Shown: positions 24,339 through 48,868, counted from the first letter of the stretch. The stretch is 51,981 nucleotides of DNA from Candidatus Dojkabacteria bacterium (GCA_030950485.1 JAUZRK010000008.1:1-51981), one strand, 5' to 3'. Made by a program: numbers and translations. Notes: a model not told the origin generated them from the sequence alone.

Positions 24339-25172
24339 TTAAATAGAATTCTTTATCAAAGCCAATCCGCCATATACACCTACCTCATCTACAAAGTTCG
24401 AAATTAAGATAGGAGGAACTTCTGAAATTCTCATCTGGTTTCTTATCTCTTTTTCAATCTTATTTTTAACATACTCATTATTTTGAATCATTCCACCTCC
24501 TAGAACTAAAACATCTGGAAGAAATAAATTTAGAAAGTTTGTACAAGCGATTGCAAGATACTCAACAGTGTCTTCCCAAATCCTAAGATCATCAATATTT
24601 GATGCATCTCTTAAAAATCTCTCAGATAAAGATTTACCGCCAGCGTACGTTTCAATACAGCCTCTCTGATCGCAAGCACATTGTTTTCCATGAAGCCCAA
24701 TCATCTGATGGCCAACTTGAGCTTCGAAAATTTTCAAGCCATCTTCCTTGGTAATAAAAGCTCCTCCAATTCCTGTAGAAACAGTTATATAAGAAATTGA
24801 ATTTATATCTTTTGCCTCTCCAAATTCTAGCTCAGCAAGAGCGGCACAGACTGTGTCATTTTCAAGATAAACTTTACAATTAAAATCTTTCTCTAGTTTT
24901 GCTTTAAGATTTTTATTAGCGTAGTCTGGAATATTAGCTGCGACTATAAGCTCACTTCTTTCTTCATTAACTATTCCTGCAAGTGCTACAGCTATAGCAT
25001 CAATGCTCTCATTTTTTAATACAACTTTTATACTAGAGACTATTTTATCAAATGCAGGTTCAAAATCTTGCGGAGTATCATATTTAACTTCCTCAATTAT
25101 CCCTTCGGTAGATAGATCTGTCGACGCGATGATTCTTGTCCCTGTTCCTCCTAAATCAATTGAAATATACAT
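24339..25172 (-). CDS. ROK-family sugar kinase
   Basis: 277 aa. The N-terminal phosphate loop reads DLGGTGTR, the catalytic region is LENDTVCAALAEL (Asp of the END triad), TGIGGAF precedes the ROK signature with VGH, and the zinc-binding site is CACDQRGCIE (C-x-C-x2-x-G-C). All ROK kinase elements are present, so ATP-dependent phosphorylation of glucose or an N-acetylhexosamine is likely; substrate not determinable. I use the ATG at 25172; a TTG nine bases upstream is less likely. The start overlaps the stop of the upstream degenerate paralog, implying tight coupling. Confidence 0.92.
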   Translation of the reverse strand: MYISIDLGGTGTRIIASTDLSTEGIIEEVKYDTPQDFEPAFDKIVSSIKVVLKNESIDAIAVALAGIVNEERSELIVAANIPDYANKNLKAKLEKDFNCKVYLENDTVCAALAELEFGEAKDINSISYITVSTGIGGAFITKEDGLKIFEAQVGHQMIGLHGKQCACDQRGCIETYAGGKSLSERFLRDASNIDDLRIWEDTVEYLAIACTNFLNLFLPDVLVLGGGMIQNNEYVKNKIEKEIRNQMRISEVPPILISNFVDEVGVYGGLALIKNSI

Positions 25173-25982
25173 TCTTATCAATCTTTGAAAAATTAAGTAA
25201 TCTTAATGCTCCTTTTTCCATTGCAACTTCGGCATTAATTCCAAATTTAATTTCTGGTAAATTAACAACTTTTAATGTTTGTTGTAATTTTGTTTTGATC
25301 ATTTCTTTTATATAGCTTTCTTCTTCAAAAAGCTCTCCAGCTAAAATTATTCTCTCAGGTTTAAACATAGCAGAAGCGTTTGCTAAAGATAATGCTAGAT
25401 AATCTGTAGTCTCTTCTAAAATCCTTTTATCATCAATTACTTTTAAATTCTCTAAAAATCTTTCTTTAATATTGTTTTTACTTATATACATTTCAGCGCA
25501 ACCTCTCTGGCCACATTTACAAAGTCTTCCATTCTTTTCGATTAATAGATAGAGTTCTCTCTTGGTTCTACGAAGGCTGCTCCGCTCTCTTCTAGCATAT
25601 GAACATATAAATATGATTTAATATCTTTATTTTCTTCTAGTTCAGTTAAACTTCCAGATAATACATTTTGTTCAAGAATAGCTTTTACATTAAATTCTTG
25701 TTCAAATTTAGATTTGATATTCTTACCAGCATGATCTGGGAAAAGTGCACATTTTGAAATATCTGATCTATCTCTTGAAACCATTCCTTTTGAAAGAATA
25801 ATTATATTTTCTAGATTCTTAGTTAGATTATTTTCATTAATGATTTTAACAATAGATTTATATGTTTCTGAAAAGAGTTGGTGTGTTTTAAAGTTATCCG
25901 AGAAGTTTTCTGAATCAATGTTTGTTGATTCATATCTGGTTATCTTTGTGTCTGTTGCTCCTATATTTATTAAAAGATTCAT
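25156..25982 (-). pseudogene. Degenerate ROK-kinase paralog
   Basis: Tandem paralog of the downstream ROK kinase, alignable over its length. The N-terminal half (25982 to 25542) ends at a stop after VEPRENSIY; the C-terminal half is in another frame from about 25558 and includes CKCGQRGCAEMY. Compared with the intact copy, the phosphate loop is NIGATDTK instead of DLGGTGTR, the catalytic END is EQN, and about nine residues including the conserved Gly-His are missing at the frameshift. Loss of several catalytic residues together with a short deletion suggests real pseudogenisation, although the rest is still well conserved. Its start overlaps the stop of peptidase E. Confidence 0.8.
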
Positions 25983-40552: not shown

Positions 40553-41674
40553 TCACCTACTCCTAAACTTATATGCGGGTAATTTTGAATTGCCTACATT
40601 TATTTTATAAGTATGAAATCTTAATGCAGGATGAGATATAGTTACATCATATTCACCCTCATATAGTTTTTCCTTAGTACTAAATCTACCATCGTCACCC
40701 GAAACTGTTTCTACAATATTACCTGTCTTTAATTCTTTAAAAGATATTTTAGCCCCTTCAACAAGATTGTTATTAGTATCTACAACTATTCCAAATACAT
40801 TCTGCGCAGGAGCTATTCTACGCCCCTCTTCATCCTCAACCATTCCAGCTGGTTCAGGGATAGCTTTTTTAGTAGGTGTTGAACTATCTCTATTCTCAGG
40901 GTTAGCTCCTTGTAGAACCTGAAATTGTTTATAAAGAAAGTTTATCTTATTAATCAATTCTTCTTCTTGCTCTTTTGTATGTTTATTTCTATATAAGTTA
41001 TTTAACTGTTTTTTTAATAAATTTATTTCATTTACATAATCATTTGCTGTTATTAATTTCTTTGGAGTTATAGTTTTCTTGTTTTGCTCAGACTTTACTT
41101 CTGCAGCTTTTTGAACATCCTCAGTATACGTTTCTCCTAAAATTCTAGATAAGTTAGAAGACCTGCTTGAGCCGGAACTACTTTTCCCAGCTAATTCTCT
41201 TAAATCATTTTCTACATTTGGATCTTTTGTGTTTTTTTTAGTTGTGCTGACAGATGAAAGAAGTTTACCAAGTGAAATCTCAGACAAATCTATTTTATCG
41301 TTATTCTTTGCTGAATTAACATTTATTTCATTTCGTAAATTAGCTTTTGGGTTTGCTGTTAATACCTCAGGTGCTCTACTCTTTTTTTTCCAAACATACC
41401 TTGGAGATATAAATAAAGCCTTCAAATACTGAGAAACCCAAGTCGAAAACTTAGGTACTAAAGCAGATCCTACACCTAATACGACACTCCCAATCATAAA
41501 CGGAAACTTAAGATACAAAGGGAGAGGAAGTAAATATAACCCAAGTGCAGATAGTGCTCCAAATAAAACCTTACTGAATTGCTTTAGAGAAAAGCTTCCG
41601 AATAGTTTAAAGTCTATTTCTATTACATTTTGTGGGACTGGGTGTTGTAGCCCAGTATCGTTTGAATCTGCCAT
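40553..41674 (-). CDS. PrgI-like membrane protein with C-terminal beta domain
   Basis: 373 aa. The N-terminal 100 residues (HPVPQNVIEIDFKLFGSFSL, then two TM hairpin segments around residues 33-75, and a basic cytoplasmic patch) match the PrgI family, small membrane proteins associated with type IV secretion/conjugation machines. Then comes a Ser/Lys-rich helical linker (110-265) and a C-terminal carboxypeptidase-regulatory-like (PEGA-type) domain: GIVVDTNNNLVEGAKISF, GDDGRFSTKEKLYEGEYDVTISHP. The fusion is unusual. No other secretion gene is in the window. Confidence 0.72.
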   Translation of the reverse strand: MADSNDTGLQHPVPQNVIEIDFKLFGSFSLKQFSKVLFGALSALGLYLLPLPLYLKFPFMIGSVVLGVGSALVPKFSTWVSQYLKALFISPRYVWKKKSRAPEVLTANPKANLRNEINVNSAKNNDKIDLSEISLGKLLSSVSTTKKNTKDPNVENDLRELAGKSSSGSSRSSNLSRILGETYTEDVQKAAEVKSEQNKKTITPKKLITANDYVNEINLLKKQLNNLYRNKHTKEQEEELINKINFLYKQFQVLQGANPENRDSSTPTKKAIPEPAGMVEDEEGRRIAPAQNVFGIVVDTNNNLVEGAKISFKELKTGNIVETVSGDDGRFSTKEKLYEGEYDVTISHPALRFHTYKINVGNSKLPAYKFRSR

Positions 41675-41770: not shown

Positions 41771-42874
41771 ATGACTGAAAACATTTTTCATATTACAGAC
41801 TCATTCTTTCACTCTGTACTCGACTCGATAGGTCACGATGTGATTATAGTATCTAATGATCTAGAGATGATGTATATGAATGTTGAGGCTAGTATTAATC
41901 TGTTTAGAAACTATGAACAGAAATCTAACGAGAATTTTTTACAAATGATAGCTGATTTAAAGAAGAGACTTAAAGTTGAGAATTCAGATGAATTAGATGA
42001 TTTAATTAAAAGTACAAGTAACGAGATAAACTTTATTACTAGTACTATTTTAATCAAATTGAACCAAAGAGGAGAGAAATTTTATGAAATTTCGACTTCA
42101 CCTATATACGATTCAAAAAAAGGACATCTTGGAAGGATTTGGCAGTTTAGAAATGTAACTGAACGAGAGACGATGGATACTATGAAAACAGAATTTATTT
42201 CTATAGCCTCACATCAACTTCGAACTCCACTTACTTCTATTAGAGGATATACCGACATGATTATCTCAGGTGATTTTGGTGAGGTAAATGAGGAATTAAA
42301 TGAACCATTAGACGCAATAAAAGTAGCTAGTTCTGAGATGGGAGAGCTTATTAATGATTTACTTAATATTAGTAGATTAGAACGAACAGATCAGGAAATC
42401 AAGATTGTAAAATTCAGTATAAAAGAGGTAATTAGTAAGGCTATTGATGAACTCTCAACTAAAGCCTTAGAAAAAAATACGACTTTAGATTTTATGGATA
42501 AGATTCAATTAGAAGTTGAAGTAGAGTCTGAACAAATAAGAGTAACTGAATCTATTAAAAATATTATTGATAATGCTATTAAATATAGCCCTGAGAAAAC
42601 AAAGGTAGAAATTAAATTAGAGAAACTGGGAAATGAAAGAATTAGAATTTCAGTAAAAGATCAAGGTATAGGAATTCCAGAAGATCAGCAAGATCACATA
42701 TTTCAGAAATTCTACAGGGCTACTAATGTGTTGACAGAGAATTTTGATGGGACTGGTTTAGGTTTATATTATGTTAAGAAATCAATTGAGGATTTAGGAG
42801 GTAAAGTTTATTTCGAATCTCAAGTTAATAATGGATCAACTTTTTATATAGAATTACCGTTAACGTATAAATAA
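41771..42874 (+). CDS. Soluble sensor histidine kinase
   Basis: 367 aa with no TM segment or signal peptide. An N-terminal PAS-like domain (residues 10-130, ending GRIWQFRNVTERE), HisKA dimerisation domain with the phosphoacceptor His148 in SHQLRTPLTSIRGY, and the HATPase domain with N box NIIDNAIKYSP, G1 box DQGIGIP, F box HIFQKFYRA and G2 box GTGLGLY. It is fully equipped to phosphorylate a response regulator. It lies first in a plus-strand run, 1 nt before the secreted VWA protein, and close to a receptor that lacks a kinase. Confidence 0.95.
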   Translation: MTENIFHITDSFFHSVLDSIGHDVIIVSNDLEMMYMNVEASINLFRNYEQKSNENFLQMIADLKKRLKVENSDELDDLIKSTSNEINFITSTILIKLNQRGEKFYEISTSPIYDSKKGHLGRIWQFRNVTERETMDTMKTEFISIASHQLRTPLTSIRGYTDMIISGDFGEVNEELNEPLDAIKVASSEMGELINDLLNISRLERTDQEIKIVKFSIKEVISKAIDELSTKALEKNTTLDFMDKIQLEVEVESEQIRVTESIKNIIDNAIKYSPEKTKVEIKLEKLGNERIRISVKDQGIGIPEDQQDHIFQKFYRATNVLTENFDGTGLGLYYVKKSIEDLGGKVYFESQVNNGSTFYIELPLTYK

Positions 42875-42875
42875 A

Positions 42876-45800
42876 ATGAAAAACAAGATTAAGTCATATA
42901 GTTTATTCATCCCTACTTTTATTCTAGTACTTATATTAATTAGTAGTGGATTAACAGGGGTTTTTGCACAAAATCAAAATTCGTTCGGACAGAATAAAAA
43001 AAATGAAGAGCAAGTTTATAATGGTCTAACAATCACACAAAGTGTTAATCAAGAAGTCTTTGAGACTGATATTGATAATAATAGTGTTACATACTCTATA
43101 GATATTACTAATAATAACGAGTGCGTAAATAATTATGACGTAGTTTTTGTTTTCGATGAATCTGATTATATGGCAAAAGGAGGTGGTGATCCTCTTCAAC
43201 CGTCTACAAGATCAAAAGAAAGTGCAAAATTATTTGTAGACAGTTTTATAAGACATGATGATCATCTAGCTTTAGTTGGTTATGGGAATAGGGTTAAAAG
43301 ACATTCGCCTCTACCAAGTGATGTAACTGCGATTAAACAGCTTATTGATAAGAGAGATTCTAACGGAGGATCAAATTTATACGAAGCATTACTATTAGCT
43401 CAAGATGAATTAACATCTCCAAGGGCTAGGGCTTCTGTTGAACAGATAGTGTTCATTGTTGCTGGAGGTAATCCGACTGAGCCCTCAAATGATTTAAATG
43501 AAAATAAAACTTTAGCATCAAACGTAGCTTATGCACTTAAATCAACTGGAGTTGAAGTTATAACAATAGGGACTGGACTTGCTGAAGATACAGATACATC
43601 GTTCTTTACCAATCTAAGTTCTCCAGGTCAATTTTACTGGGCTCCTAGTGATTATCAAATTACTCAAATATATCAAAATTTAGCTAGCAGTCTATCAGGT
43701 AGTTCTTCTGCAACTGTAGCTTGGGATGATGTCTCTAGTTTATTAGGAGTTGCAGAGCTTGTTAGTATAAGTGGAAATGGAAGACTAGAAAATGGTCAAG
43801 TAATTTGGGACTTAGGAGATGTTGAATGTGGAGCTTCTGTACAATTAAGCTATACTTTTGACTTTAATAGTAATTTATCCGATGAATATATTAGAAAAAA
43901 TATAATTAAAGCAACGAATTCTACTTCAGAGATTTATTCATCTAATGAATTAACAATTACAGCAACAAGTCCTTGGTTAGAAGGATCTATAACAGATAAT
44001 ACTGAAAAGATTAGTAAGACTACAAATCTTACATATGACGTATCTGTAGAAAATATAGGGAAAAGTACTAGTAGAAATGTAACTGCTAGTGTTAGTTTCC
44101 CAGACTATATTGAAATAATAAGCTCTGATATTGAAGATGCTGTGATTAATGGTAATCAAATTAGTTGGAGTATTAATGAGTTAAATAAAGACGAGGTAAT
44201 CAACTACAAAATAGAAACTGTTGCTAACATTGCAAATGAAGTTACTTCAGGCCAAATATTAGCTCCTCTTTCATTAACTAACGAAAGTCAGGAGTTTAGT
44301 ACGAGTGATTTAACATTAATAGAAAAAGAAAATACTGCTAATTATTCATTATTCGCGAAGTGTATTGAAATTAGCGGAGATAAAATGGACGTATATTTTG
44401 GATATAACAATAGGTTAAACTCTACGCAAACTCTAACATCTAGTAATATTATTACAGGATCTGGAGATAATGCAGAAGGCAATGTACCATTAGAATTATT
44501 AGCAGGCGTAAATGATCTAGATGACCCAATAACGTTAAGTAAGAATGATTCATTATCTTGGGTTGCCGAGATAAATGATTATAGTAAATCTGTAAGCATT
44601 AATAATACTTTTGATTCTTGCCAAAGCGATGATGACCAGCAAGATGATGAACAAGATGAAGATAATAACGATGATCAACAAGATGACGAGCAAGATGAAG
44701 ATAATAACGATGATCAACAAGATGACGAGCAAGATGAAGATAATAATGATGATCACCAAGATGACGAGCAAGATGAAGATAATAATGATGATCAACAAGA
44801 TGACGAGCAAGATGAAGATAATAATGATGATCAACAAGATGACGAGCAAGATGAAGATAATAATGATGATCAACAAGATGACGAGCAAGATGAAGATAAT
44901 AACGATGATCAACAAGATGACGAGCAAGAAAACGAATCAGAAAATGAGCCCAATATAATAGTTCAAACACCTTCTCTAGTACTGTTCCCTATTAATGTAC
45001 GAGTAACTTCAGAAACTCCAATAAGTAATAATCAGATTGTTACAGATGTTGAATTTGTTAGAAATGAATTAATAAATGTTTCGCTAGAAAATGCAGTAGT
45101 TGAATCAAACTGTATAGACAAATCATTTGAACTTAAAAATGGTTTGATCAATTCAAATACTAATATACTTGGTGTTGATTATTCTATAGATGGTGGAAAT
45201 AATTGGTTTCCAAACGCAGATCTAAAAGGTTTAGGAACTAAGAATGTAGAAATTAACTTTAAAACAAATAGAAAGGAAGACAAGCTATACAATATTACTT
45301 TTAGAGCGAGAACTAGCAATGGTTCTGAGACTAGCTTTAGCGGTCTAGATTTCTTACATCAATGTAATGGTGAGAAAAAAATATTAGCTCATTATTTTGA
45401 GAATGGATTTACCCCAGCAATAATAAATAAAGAAGGAGAATTGATAATAAATCAATCATTGCCTTTAATTCTACATGTTGAAACATTAGGTGGTGTCGAA
45501 AACTTAGAACTACGGTTGTATAACACTAGTGAAATAGATAATATTGATTATAAAACAGTTAATTTGGACTTTGATTTTGCTACAGAACTATGGTCTTCTA
45601 AAATTGATCCTAAGAATTTCAGGGATGGATACGTTTATCCTGTATTAGTTGCTGATAATACTATTTTCAAATCACTTAAGAAAGCAAATATTGAAACATC
45701 AATTATTGCAGAAGAAGAACAAGCTGATAATAATTTAAATTTTGAGGTTTATTATTTCAATGAATATGAATGGGAAAAGCTTGAATATAATGAATATAAT

Positions 45801-46472
45801 CTAGATCAAAACAAGAAAAGCTCAATAAGATTAACTCTATTTCCTGGTGAATACTTTGTTGAAGTAAATGAAAATGGTAGTAAGAAATATAGTGATAAAT
45901 TTATTCTTGAAAAGACTTCAATAGTTAACATAAAGAATAAAAAAAACTTGCCAAGTATTTTTGGTTTCTTTCAATCATTATTAACTAATCTAGAAATAGA
46001 AATTTATTCTGGTGATTCATATGTTTCTGATGACTTTAGTTACAATAGAGAAACTGGGAAATTAGCTGAGACATATAGAACTGCTCTTAATAATGTCTTA
46101 TTTGAGAGTGCGGACGATGAAATGATATTAGTCAGTTACTGGACAAGATGGGATCCCTACTCAACAGAGAGGCTCTCATTGCTTGGTAAAATAAAAAATA
46201 AAATAAATGATGAGTCAATAGGAAATCGAGAAGTAGTAATTTTTGTAGATGAAAAGAATTTTGATGAATTAGAAAGAAGTCTTGATCTATTAGATTTAGA
46301 TCTAAGGGTTATTCAAATCACTAATCCTGAAATATTAAATAATCTAAGTCGAGATCCATCAAGCTTTAGTATTTATGATAATGGATTAAAAAGTATTTTA
46401 GTTACAAATGGATATAGTAACTTAGAGAATTACAGTGAAGAATTAAGTAACTTAAATTTTATTGATTTATAG
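42876..46472 (+). CDS. Giant secreted VWA-domain protein with acidic repeats
   Basis: 1198 aa. Signal peptide (residues 1-32). A von Willebrand A domain spans about 80-270; its MIDAS is degenerate (DESDY instead of DxSxS, GGSN instead of GGTN, and AGGNP instead of TDGEP). DUF11-like beta domains follow (about 275-480), then an Asp/Gln/Glu/Asn repeat (about 585-685), an Ig-like segment with YSIDGGNNWFP, and a C-terminal alpha/beta domain rich in Leu/Ile strands. No C-terminal anchor is seen, so it is secreted or held by other proteins. 1 nt separates it from the upstream kinase and the downstream receptor gene. Confidence 0.8.
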   Translation: MKNKIKSYSLFIPTFILVLILISSGLTGVFAQNQNSFGQNKKNEEQVYNGLTITQSVNQEVFETDIDNNSVTYSIDITNNNECVNNYDVVFVFDESDYMAKGGGDPLQPSTRSKESAKLFVDSFIRHDDHLALVGYGNRVKRHSPLPSDVTAIKQLIDKRDSNGGSNLYEALLLAQDELTSPRARASVEQIVFIVAGGNPTEPSNDLNENKTLASNVAYALKSTGVEVITIGTGLAEDTDTSFFTNLSSPGQFYWAPSDYQITQIYQNLASSLSGSSSATVAWDDVSSLLGVAELVSISGNGRLENGQVIWDLGDVECGASVQLSYTFDFNSNLSDEYIRKNIIKATNSTSEIYSSNELTITATSPWLEGSITDNTEKISKTTNLTYDVSVENIGKSTSRNVTASVSFPDYIEIISSDIEDAVINGNQISWSINELNKDEVINYKIETVANIANEVTSGQILAPLSLTNESQEFSTSDLTLIEKENTANYSLFAKCIEISGDKMDVYFGYNNRLNSTQTLTSSNIITGSGDNAEGNVPLELLAGVNDLDDPITLSKNDSLSWVAEINDYSKSVSINNTFDSCQSDDDQQDDEQDEDNNDDQQDDEQDEDNNDDQQDDEQDEDNNDDHQDDEQDEDNNDDQQDDEQDEDNNDDQQDDEQDEDNNDDQQDDEQDEDNNDDQQDDEQENESENEPNIIVQTPSLVLFPINVRVTSETPISNNQIVTDVEFVRNELINVSLENAVVESNCIDKSFELKNGLINSNTNILGVDYSIDGGNNWFPNADLKGLGTKNVEINFKTNRKEDKLYNITFRARTSNGSETSFSGLDFLHQCNGEKKILAHYFENGFTPAIINKEGELIINQSLPLILHVETLGGVENLELRLYNTSEIDNIDYKTVNLDFDFATELWSSKIDPKNFRDGYVYPVLVADNTIFKSLKKANIETSIIAEEEQADNNLNFEVYYFNEYEWEKLEYNEYNLDQNKKSSIRLTLFPGEYFVEVNENGSKKYSDKFILEKTSIVNIKNKKNLPSIFGFFQSLLTNLEIEIYSGDSYVSDDFSYNRETGKLAETYRTALNNVLFESADDEMILVSYWTRWDPYSTERLSLLGKIKNKINDESIGNREVVIFVDEKNFDELERSLDLLDLDLRVIQITNPEILNNLSRDPSSFSIYDNGLKSILVTNGYSNLENYSEELSNLNFIDL
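44631..44927 (+). repeat. 39-bp tandem repeat, about 7.6 copies
   Basis: Seven complete 39-bp units encoding DDQQDDEQDEDNN (the fourth has DDHQ) and a partial eighth ending DDQQDDEQ. Unit length is divisible by three so copy-number changes keep the frame. The units differ by a few synonymous third-base changes. Lying within the VWA protein, it forms a flexible, strongly acidic linker. Confidence 0.95.
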
Positions 46473-46473
46473 A

Positions 46474-48090
46474 ATGTTTGATAATCTATTATATTTGAAT
46501 TTGTATCTTGCTGCTAATTCCTTAGCAGCTTTAGGTTTCTTTACGTTTGCTTGGTTATATTTCGATCTATTCTTAAAGCAAAAAGAGCAAAGGTTTAATT
46601 TAGTTAAAACTATTGGAAGTATCTTGATTGCAATATCCTTTCTAGTTCCTATTGTGGAAAATATTAGAAAAGAAGAGATTTATGTTGATGTACCATTTCT
46701 GACAATAGCTTTATTAAGCTTAGGATTAGTACTATTAGCACTTTCAAATTTATTACAAATTGTGCCTGGGTTACCGGATCTAAAGAAGACTAAAAAGAAG
46801 CATTATGATCATAAAAAGAGAAAAATTCTTCAATATCTATTGATTGTACTATTCTCGCCAATTAGTTTTTTAATGGCTTTACTTCTTACCTTACAAAATT
46901 ACTATAAAGTTAAACATGGAAAAAGTAATGAGTTTAAGCCTTTAATTTTAATTTGGAGCTTATTATCTATTGTATTTCTTTTTTTAAGTTTACAATATTT
47001 TGGAGAGCATATTTCTACTTGGATCGAAGTTAATATTGCAGCTTATACAATTTATTCAATTATAGCTAATTTAATATTAGTAGTATCGATAATACTGCTC
47101 TTTTATTGGATTTTTAGGTTTATATCTTTTAGAGCTTTTTCAAAGATTTATTTAAGTATTTGGCAGTTAACTCTTTTTTTAAGTATTGCTATTGCAACAG
47201 TATTTACTTTTATAAATATTAAATCTAGCGAAGATCAGATTTATAGACTTCTTGGAGATAACTCAGAACTTATTTCGTTTAACTTTAGCGAGCTTATTAA
47301 TACAACTAGTGATGTTCTTACTGTTCTTTCAGACAGTGAAAGCATTCAAACGGCTATAAGTTCTAAAGATACTGTAAAGCTTAATAAAGAATTTAGTAAC
47401 TTTATAAATAAAAATTCTAATATTGATAAAGTTATAGTAACCGATAGTTCAGGTATTCTTGTTTTTGATAGTGAGAGAACGAATGCTTTTGGAGAGATTA
47501 AGTCTGATATTGAGACTATTAGTAATGTAATTGAAACTGGAACTCCAAATTCAAAATACTATGTTGAAAAATTAAGAGTTAATTCTGAAAGACTCACTCA
47601 ATATCTTTCATATCCTGTAATAAGAAATGATACTTTAATTGGAACTATAACTTCAGTAAAGAGATTTGATGATATATATTTAGATAATCTTAAAGAAGAA
47701 ACTGATCAGGAATTAATCATTTATGTAAACGATAAGCGAACTGCTAGCACTATATTAGAATCTGATGGAATAAGTAGATTAGAAAATCTTCCTAAGTTAA
47801 ATTTTGAGATAGAAAGAACTGAAAAAAGTGAGGGACAAACAATAGAATTTGGAAAAGCTAATATTTTAAATACGCCTTATTATATTGCTAGTCTTAAGCT
47901 AAGTTATGTAGATGAAGATAGCTCAGACATTAATCATGATATTGTTGTAGCTACTAAGCAAACAACTTTAATAGAGTCTACTCAGAAGTCACTAGAGAGA
48001 ACATTTCTATTAGCTATTGCTATAAGTATTCTTGCGACAATTCCAAGTTATTTCCTAGCAAAAAATTTAGAAAAGAACTTATCTTCGTAG
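46474..48090 (+). CDS. Multi-TM receptor without output domain
   Basis: 538 aa from the ATG at 46474, 1 nt after the previous stop (an upstream TTG is unlikely). Seven hydrophobic segments cover about residues 5-255, then an extracytoplasmic domain of about 230 residues with Cache-like features (FINKNSNIDKVIVTDSSGILVFDSE, TQYLSYPVIRNDTLIGTI), and a final TM (TFLLAIAISILATIPSYFLA) ending in a 10-residue tail. There is no HAMP, kinase or methyl-accepting domain. It looks like the receptor half of a two-component sensor whose kinase is encoded separately upstream. Confidence 0.75.
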   Translation: MFDNLLYLNLYLAANSLAALGFFTFAWLYFDLFLKQKEQRFNLVKTIGSILIAISFLVPIVENIRKEEIYVDVPFLTIALLSLGLVLLALSNLLQIVPGLPDLKKTKKKHYDHKKRKILQYLLIVLFSPISFLMALLLTLQNYYKVKHGKSNEFKPLILIWSLLSIVFLFLSLQYFGEHISTWIEVNIAAYTIYSIIANLILVVSIILLFYWIFRFISFRAFSKIYLSIWQLTLFLSIAIATVFTFINIKSSEDQIYRLLGDNSELISFNFSELINTTSDVLTVLSDSESIQTAISSKDTVKLNKEFSNFINKNSNIDKVIVTDSSGILVFDSERTNAFGEIKSDIETISNVIETGTPNSKYYVEKLRVNSERLTQYLSYPVIRNDTLIGTITSVKRFDDIYLDNLKEETDQELIIYVNDKRTASTILESDGISRLENLPKLNFEIERTEKSEGQTIEFGKANILNTPYYIASLKLSYVDEDSSDINHDIVVATKQTTLIESTQKSLERTFLLAIAISILATIPSYFLAKNLEKNLSS

Positions 48091-48095
48091 AAACT

Positions 48096-48362
48096 ATGAA
48101 TAAAATTAGCCTAACAATATTAATCTGTTTAGCAATAATAGGAGCTGCGGTTTATGTTTTCTTCTTAAATGATAAATCAGAAAACCCAGATGATTATTCG
48201 TATACAGAATCATATGATACAGAGAATTCATGTTATCCTGCTAATTCAATTATTCCTATTAGCATAGACGATAATTATAATTATAAATGCTGCGATGGTT
48301 CTAAAGAATTAGATCCAAAAAGTGATGATTTAGGAGTAAAAGGATATTGTATTCCAAACTAG
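48096..48362 (+). CDS. Small anchored Cys-containing protein
   Basis: 88 aa with a single N-terminal TM (ISLTILICLAIIGAAVYVFF) and an extracytoplasmic tail holding four cysteines (NSCYPA, KCCDG, GYCIPN). The spacing suggests two disulfides. Unknown family. It starts 5 nt after the receptor stop and is the last gene in the run, followed by a terminator. Confidence 0.6.
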   Translation: MNKISLTILICLAIIGAAVYVFFLNDKSENPDDYSYTESYDTENSCYPANSIIPISIDDNYNYKCCDGSKELDPKSDDLGVKGYCIPN

Positions 48363-48381
48363 GATTATTTAACTAAATATA

Positions 48382-48417
48382 AAAGAACTTATCTTCAATT
48401 AAGAAGATAAGTTCTTT
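48382..48417. terminator. Bidirectional terminator at the end of the sensory operon
   Basis: A 15-bp perfect inverted repeat (48382-48396 with 48403-48417) with a 6-nt loop, between the convergent stops of the small Cys protein and the response regulator. Confidence 0.85.
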
Positions 48418-48439
48418 AAATTTGTTTAACTCTATTTTC

Positions 48440-48868
48440 TTAACCAATTACAAGTGATTTTTTACCTGTAGCTTCTAGTTTTTCCTTAATCTCTGAAACT
48501 ACGTCTGCTGGAACTAATTCACTTTTAATTAAATAGCTTACAGCTCCTAGCTCTAATGCTCTTTCTACATATTCTTGATTAGATACATTAGAAAGCATAA
48601 TTACTGGAATATGTTTTGTTTCTTCATGTTCTTTTAATTGAGATAGTACTGTTAGTCCATCCATCTCAGGCATCATGACGTCACATACAATTAGCTCAGG
48701 TTGTTCACTTAAAGCGACTTCTAAACCATTTTTTCCGTTTGTTGAAGTTATACATTCGAAACCGTCATGTTCTAATTTCTTAGAATACATTCTTGTTAGT
48801 AATCCTTCGTCTTCAATTAGTAGAATTACTGGTTTTGTTCTTAAGCTATTTTTATTTTCTTCTGCCAT
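48440..48868 (-). CDS. Stand-alone response regulator receiver
   Basis: 142 aa, receiver domain only. Acid pocket IEDE (Glu19-Asp20), phosphoacceptor Asp63 in VCDVMMPEMDG, Ser in MLSNVS, and Lys in YLIKSE. There is no DNA-binding or enzymatic domain, so it must act by protein contacts or as a phosphate relay. It is encoded convergently to the kinase operon and is its obvious partner. Confidence 0.95.
   Translation of the reverse strand: MAEENKNSLRTKPVILLIEDEGLLTRMYSKKLEHDGFECITSTNGKNGLEVALSEQPELIVCDVMMPEMDGLTVLSQLKEHEETKHIPVIMLSNVSNQEYVERALELGAVSYLIKSELVPADVVSEIKEKLEATGKKSLVIG

Follow-up and report, generated by a model that had tools for sequence, protein, structure and literature searches.

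Gene content and layout of the locus

The window, meaning the whole analysed stretch of 51,981 nucleotides, is one complete contig (G000:C29) of a 1.41-Mb genome. Four plus-strand genes with gaps of 1, 1 and 5 nt form an operon that encodes a soluble histidine kinase (HK), a secreted partner (SEC), a membrane receptor (REC) and a small membrane-anchored Cys protein, and a stand-alone receiver gene lies convergent to them (Table 1). This tight packing of the four genes, with the receiver facing the operon, is as an earlier note on this DNA had described. The start of REC was taken as the ATG; the listed TTG start would overlap the upstream gene. The perfect 15-bp inverted repeat between the operon and the receiver gene looks like a two-way terminator, and thus the receiver gene is probably transcribed on its own. 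At the 3' end of REC, 19 nt (48068-48086) repeat the left arm of this terminator (48378-48396) with 95% identity, which offers the right arm two possible pairing partners. The divergent neighbour upstream of the operon (40553-41674, minus strand) has a weak PrgI-like N-terminus (E 0.006, below the cut-off) and a carboxypeptidase-regulatory-like C-terminus. Elsewhere in the window (24339-25982, minus strand), three consecutive ORFs resemble one complete and two partial ROK-family sugar kinase-like proteins.

Table 1. Features of the sensory locus, in window coordinates
Feature	Position	Strand	Details
Soluble PAS-HisKA-HATPase histidine kinase (HK)	41771..42874	+	367 aa; Pfam and motif reading
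Secreted partner (SEC, VWA protein)	42876..46472	+	1198 aa; VWA_2 E 1e-10, DUF11 E 1e-5
Acidic linker inside SEC	44629..44929	+	39-bp tandem repeat, 7.7 copies, encoding Asp/Glu/Gln/Asn
SEC C-terminal ResA/TlpA-like thioredoxin fold without CXXC	46029..46469	+	active-site position WTRWDPYS (46140-46163)
Receptor (REC)	46474..48090	+	538 aa from ATG; dCache_3 E 2.7e-8
Small membrane-anchored Cys protein	48096..48362	+	88 aa
Perfect 15-bp inverted repeat between operon and receiver gene	48382..48417		probable two-way terminator
Stand-alone CheY-like receiver	48440..48868	-	142 aa; Response_reg E 3e-23

The receptor and its secreted partner

Hydropathy analysis of REC shows seven hydrophobic segments followed by a double Cache domain (residues ~249-495), an eighth membrane segment (TM8) and a cytoplasmic tail of ~8 aa. 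The AlphaFold2 model (mean pLDDT 79) contains the membrane helices, two Cache domains and the C-terminal helix; the AlphaFold models draw on 10-12 sequences and have medium confidence. The Cache region is homologous to those of DcuS and CitA (E 1e-7), and structurally resembles those of DctB, PctA, KinD and LuxQ in Foldseek searches, with 1zhh_B among the matches. The family-wide charge bias, with an acidic Cache region and a positive loop between TM6 and TM7, agrees with an extracytoplasmic location of the Cache domains. Positive loops also lie on both sides of segment 4, which therefore may not span the membrane fully. The layout proposed earlier, with seven membrane segments, a Cache-like domain, an eighth segment and neither HAMP nor kinase, thus holds except for this doubt about TM4. 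The top-scoring conserved positions among the 22 full-length family members are G48, W212 and R220. The latter two flank the positively charged loop 6-7, and TM7 runs directly into the N-terminal helix of the Cache region. Judged from this sequence conservation, loop 6-7 is a candidate contact site for the kinase.

The receptor chain stops after TM8 in all 22 full-length members. No Pfam output domain was found in the window receptor or in the ten relatives scanned, no HAMP or kinase in the window receptor and no MCP domain in the scanned receptors, and none of the receptors from the 14 genomes and the 10 additional named loci carries a fused kinase or other output domain. The family is naturally output-less, which answers the concern of the earlier note that the receptor might be truncated in this genome only. 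Comparison of the membrane region of REC with the 7-8 TM kinases of sister loci gave no support for homology (hhalign probability 0.7%). A published survey reports Cache domains solely from proteins that also carry an output domain, and gives the C-terminal membrane helix as their only signal route (PMC4822843). REC has the fold and placement of a Cache sensor and carries no output domain on the same protein, departing from a generalisation drawn from a biased sample (PMC4822843). The models of that survey came from output-bearing proteins, so it could have missed an output-less family by design. The receptor is split over two frames in G147 (L036:9112-10642) and G244 (L017:1262-3381), owing to frameshifts or sequencing errors.

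SEC begins with an N-terminal hydrophobic signal segment, followed by the VWA domain, DUF11, the acidic repeat, Ig-like domains, a carboxypeptidase-regulatory-like sandwich and a thioredoxin fold. It is the 1198-aa secreted VWA protein with an acidic linker that had been noted before, the linker being the 39-bp tandem repeat. The N-terminal part of the partner is variable: VWA with DUF11 occurs only in the window and in G009, fn3 or Ig-like domains occur in most others, and DUF4215 repeats are present in the partners of G011 and G097. VWA was found in two of the 18 partners scanned, with no match in the other 16. The window protein lacks the DxSxS metal motif (MIDAS) of VWA adhesins and has a degenerate DESDY instead, whereas the motif is intact (DRSGS) in the G009 relative (L004). 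VWA was consequently rejected as the key domain, and the weight that the earlier note had placed on it shifts to the C-terminus.

The constant C-terminus of the partner consists of an Ig-like domain (YSIDGGxxW), a second sandwich, the carboxypeptidase-regulatory-like domain and the thioredoxin fold. The latter has a Pfam match to AhpC-TSA/Redoxin in many members, and the C-terminal model is closest to ResA/DsbE (Foldseek E 1.5e-4, TM-score 0.62 on the target). However, the domain differs from the ResA/TlpA/DsbE thiol-disulfide oxidoreductases, whose fold and cis-Pro position it shares, in standing at the end of a large secreted protein and in lacking CXXC throughout (25 of 25 partner copies); in 24 of the 25, the last 170 residues are free of cysteine. 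The cis-Pro is the sole fully conserved position among 11 aligned copies. In G284, the thioredoxin-fold domain is a separate 177-aa anchored protein encoded between the partner and the receptor, indicating that it is a module. The redox-dead fold has apparently been turned into a signalling or docking module. The same C-terminus is also found on very large DUF4215/cadherin-like secreted proteins, some of more than 2,000 aa, in L005, L028, L029 and L071.

Kinase, receiver and conservation of the gene set

Hydropathy analysis agrees with the earlier observation that HK has no membrane segment, and HisKA (E 4e-17) and HATPase_c (E 1.5e-28) are clear Pfam matches. The phospho-acceptor is His148 (codon 42212-42214), and the H-, N- and G-boxes are intact and conserved with the L004 kinase. 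The PAS domain was assigned by homology to this kinase (34% identical), which has a Pfam PAS match (E 1.8e-7). The receiver has no DNA-binding or enzyme domain; its phospho-acceptor Asp63 and Lys115 are conserved with the L004 receiver, and the acidic pair is present. HK and the receiver thus both carry the motifs of a two-component system, and phosphotransfer between them is predicted.

The neighbouring kinase is free of membrane segments in eight of 19 loci (window, G009, G083, G085, G095, G234, L082 and L084) and bears them in the other 11 (G254, G289, G284, G147, G011, L074, L077, L079, L081, L083 and L085), some of these kinases having a sensor region of their own (7-8 TM, CHASE4-HAMP). 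The idea that receptor and kinase exactly complement each other therefore stands for the relatives in the window's class and a few others, but not for the 11 loci in which the kinase has its own membrane segments or sensor region. Read from these sequences, the kinase is the exchangeable part of the cassette. In the receiver tree, the label "cassette" changes 4 times compared with 14.4 times in shuffles (0 of 500 shuffles as low), so the cassette receivers form a lineage largely distinct from the other receivers of the same genomes. L040, L036 and NON_L087 are exceptions, and most inner branches of the tree are weak; L036 (G147) is represented by the long-branched receiver L036|1, though other receivers lie nearby.

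Several other proteins were observed at the related loci. FIST-domain proteins adjoin membrane-free kinases at two receptor loci (L035:3389-4585 by Pfam, L082:14233-15420 by resemblance). Sister loci contain kinase-free sensors with CHASE4-like/HAMP/PAS, Cache-like/HAMP or PAS-rich architectures (L075:2817-4346, L077:11568-13103, L078:4858-6135 and L040:4179-6155); all four end in a common motif resembling LNxLMVGRELKMAELKKEI, and some adjoin a solute-binding protein. Split sensing thus seems, from gene content, to recur in sister loci. In the G011 locus, type IV pilin-like genes (L040:2463-4052) lie directly upstream of the PAS protein, the kinase and the receiver.

Profile searches covered 86 genomes of the window's class and a 380-genome sample of the phylum, partly overlapping and ~430 in total, and found the receptor in 14, not counting weak partial matches in G139, G159 and G186. 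Among 58 relatives searched, three genomes have it, the window's own included. The distribution is patchy: the receptor is absent from the eight other searched genomes of the window's family and present in another family of the same order (G009), where the kinase, VWA protein, receptor and receiver are encoded on one strand with 24-40% identity to the window. A scan of named-species genomes with a 3-sequence receptor alignment (A7) gave 12 receptor loci, of which two are contigs of G254 and G289, leaving 10 further ones; a genome-contig scan with a single receptor protein as the query gave no match. Wherever the group is named, the loci belong to Patescibacteria (Saccharibacteria, Levybacteria, Woesebacteria, Collierbacteria and other Microgenomates).

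Clustering of the neighbours at 25 loci recovered the secreted partner at 24, the receptor at 24, the kinase at 21 and the receiver at 20, the next families occurring at 4 and 3 loci. No CheW-like or other further family recurs among these neighbours, and the neighbouring kinases are of the HisKA type. At all loci that could be read, a partner with the same C-terminus adjoins the receptor; it usually lies directly upstream, with a spacing of -4 to ~60 nt. Partner matches over most of the profile occur in eight genomes of the 380-genome census, with the receptor adjacent in seven and the locus of the eighth cut by a contig end. Under random placement, a receiver within 5 kb of the receptor would be expected in 0.85 of 14 genomes and was found in 12 (P ~7e-14); for a HisKA kinase the corresponding values are 0.57 and 10 (P ~2e-12). 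In G011, the kinase and receiver lie 10-11 kb from the receptor, beyond two giant partner genes, and G097 has two receptor-partner pairs with neither kinase nor receiver nearby. The linkage of kinase, receiver and secreted protein to the receptor, which the earlier note had proposed to look for, is thus conserved in relatives, although patchily. The small Cys protein, counted there as a fifth family, was found only in the window locus; none of the neighbours at 24 homologous loci is related to it.

Distance correlations are high between receptor and partner (0.94; 0.81 without the window's class), intermediate between receiver and kinase (0.70; 0.50) and lower between receptor and kinase (0.64; 0.24, not significant); they may reflect common descent only. 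In our reading of these sequence distances, receptor and partner are inherited as one pair and kinase and receiver as another, and the two pairs remain linked.

A proposed signalling pathway on four polypeptides and its alternatives

The favoured reading, with a probability of about 0.58, is that the partner, receptor, kinase and receiver form one envelope-to-cytoplasm signalling pathway spread over four polypeptides. Its observed basis comprises the parts themselves, the intact kinase and receiver motifs, the linkage, the receptor-partner co-inheritance and the family-wide absence of an output domain and of CXXC; the physical contacts, the direction of signal flow, the ligand and the output are what we infer. 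The partner would reach outward with its variable Ig, fn3, VWA or DUF4215 domains and dock on the receptor's extracytoplasmic Cache domains via its conserved C-terminus, namely the regulatory-like sandwich and the redox-dead thioredoxin fold. The signal would be carried across the membrane via TM7 and TM8 and presented by the cytoplasmic loops, with W212 and R220 around loop 6-7, to the separate PAS histidine kinase. The kinase would in turn phosphorylate the CheY-like receiver, which may act through protein-protein contact.

A less probable reading, though the strongest of the alternatives, places two modules side by side: the receptor and partner would be a surface-anchoring or ligand-holding complex, and the kinase and receiver a separate two-component system linked to it by lifestyle or co-expression. 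The distances correlate within each pair and the correlation across the pairs vanishes outside the window's class, G097 keeps receptor and partner without a nearby kinase, and the kinases of many loci carry their own sensors, all as such an arrangement would predict. However, in 12 of 14 genomes the receptor has a sensor-less receiver of a largely distinct lineage at most 5 kb away, and such a receiver, lacking a DNA-binding domain, cannot itself control the expression of its neighbours. Furthermore, a double Cache domain between membrane helices is a signalling design, and Cache domains were found with signalling output in the survey (PMC4822843).

The remaining alternatives concern single links of the pathway or the locus as a whole. 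The receptor might contact the receiver directly, or signal via another cytoplasmic partner, with the kinase as a phosphate source only. The receiver lies within 5 kb slightly more often than the kinase does (12 vs. 10 of 14 genomes), but no precedent was found in the literature searched and the short loops of the receptor have no resemblance to a known receiver-binding domain, making such a contact unlikely. Redox sensing, in which the thioredoxin domain would read a thiol state and pass it to the receptor, is suggested by the ResA/DsbE-like fold and by a match to the DsbE-family HMM in L031 (E 1.4e-10); it is contradicted by the lack of CXXC in the 25 copies examined, was rejected and is very improbable. 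Least credible of all is that the genes adjoin by chance, or that the receptor is a sensor kinase that lost its kinase part in this genome alone. The absence of the receptor from the eight other genomes of the same family would fit such an accident. However, the receptor never carries a kinase, and other families, classes and named groups have it together with the same genes, with a random-placement probability of ~1e-13, so both versions were rejected.

Compared with known systems, the proposed four-polypeptide pathway has familiar components in a different arrangement. The Cache sensor kinases DcuS/CitA, DctB, KinD and LuxQ share with the cassette an extracytoplasmic Cache domain of the same superfamily between two membrane helices, the HisKA-HATPase core and a receiver domain, whereas in the cassette the sensor and kinase are separate proteins, and HAMP, coiled coil and kinase are all missing from the sensor. 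LuxP-LuxQ likewise pairs a secreted protein with a membrane Cache sensor, but in the cassette a multi-Ig protein that ends in a dead thioredoxin fold takes the place of the periplasmic binding protein, and the receptor has no kinase. A membrane sensor and a kinase are separate polypeptides in UhpC-UhpB, BceAB-BceS and MCP-CheA, whose sensors are either transporters or proteins with a dedicated MCP signalling domain. In contrast, the cassette sensor is a 7TM-Cache protein with almost no cytoplasmic part. The cassette also differs from the MCP/CheA chemosensory system in having HisKA-type kinases, no MCP domain and no CheW among its recurrent neighbours.

No description of the cassette was found in the literature searched, subscription papers being mostly outside the search. 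The parts are of known kinds, while an output-less Cache receptor, a redox-dead thioredoxin module and the conserved pairing of the two seem not to have been described before. The receptor family is at odds with the published view that a Cache domain is always accompanied by an output domain (PMC4822843). Should the receptor indeed control the adjacent kinase, sensor and kinase would be exchangeable as separate parts.

An episymbiotic life style has been reported for cultivated Patescibacteria, and the means by which ultra-small episymbionts recognise and bind hosts are poorly understood (PMC12206443). No signalling cassette for host recognition or binding was described in the papers searched. 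A role of the cassette in host contact or attachment is possible and would fit this life style. Given that the cassette recurs in distant relatives, bacteria of this kind, many of which are believed to live attached to other microbes, may use it to sense what is present on their surface. Tentatively, it could be a surface-contact sense restricted to Patescibacteria, in which an adhesin-like protein with a dead thioredoxin docking head would act on the output-less Cache receptor, the latter on an interchangeable kinase through its membrane loops, and the CheY-like receiver would switch the attached or host-bound stage. The cassette is a concrete, conserved and testable candidate for host recognition, and it is present in Saccharibacteria, some of which are cultured.
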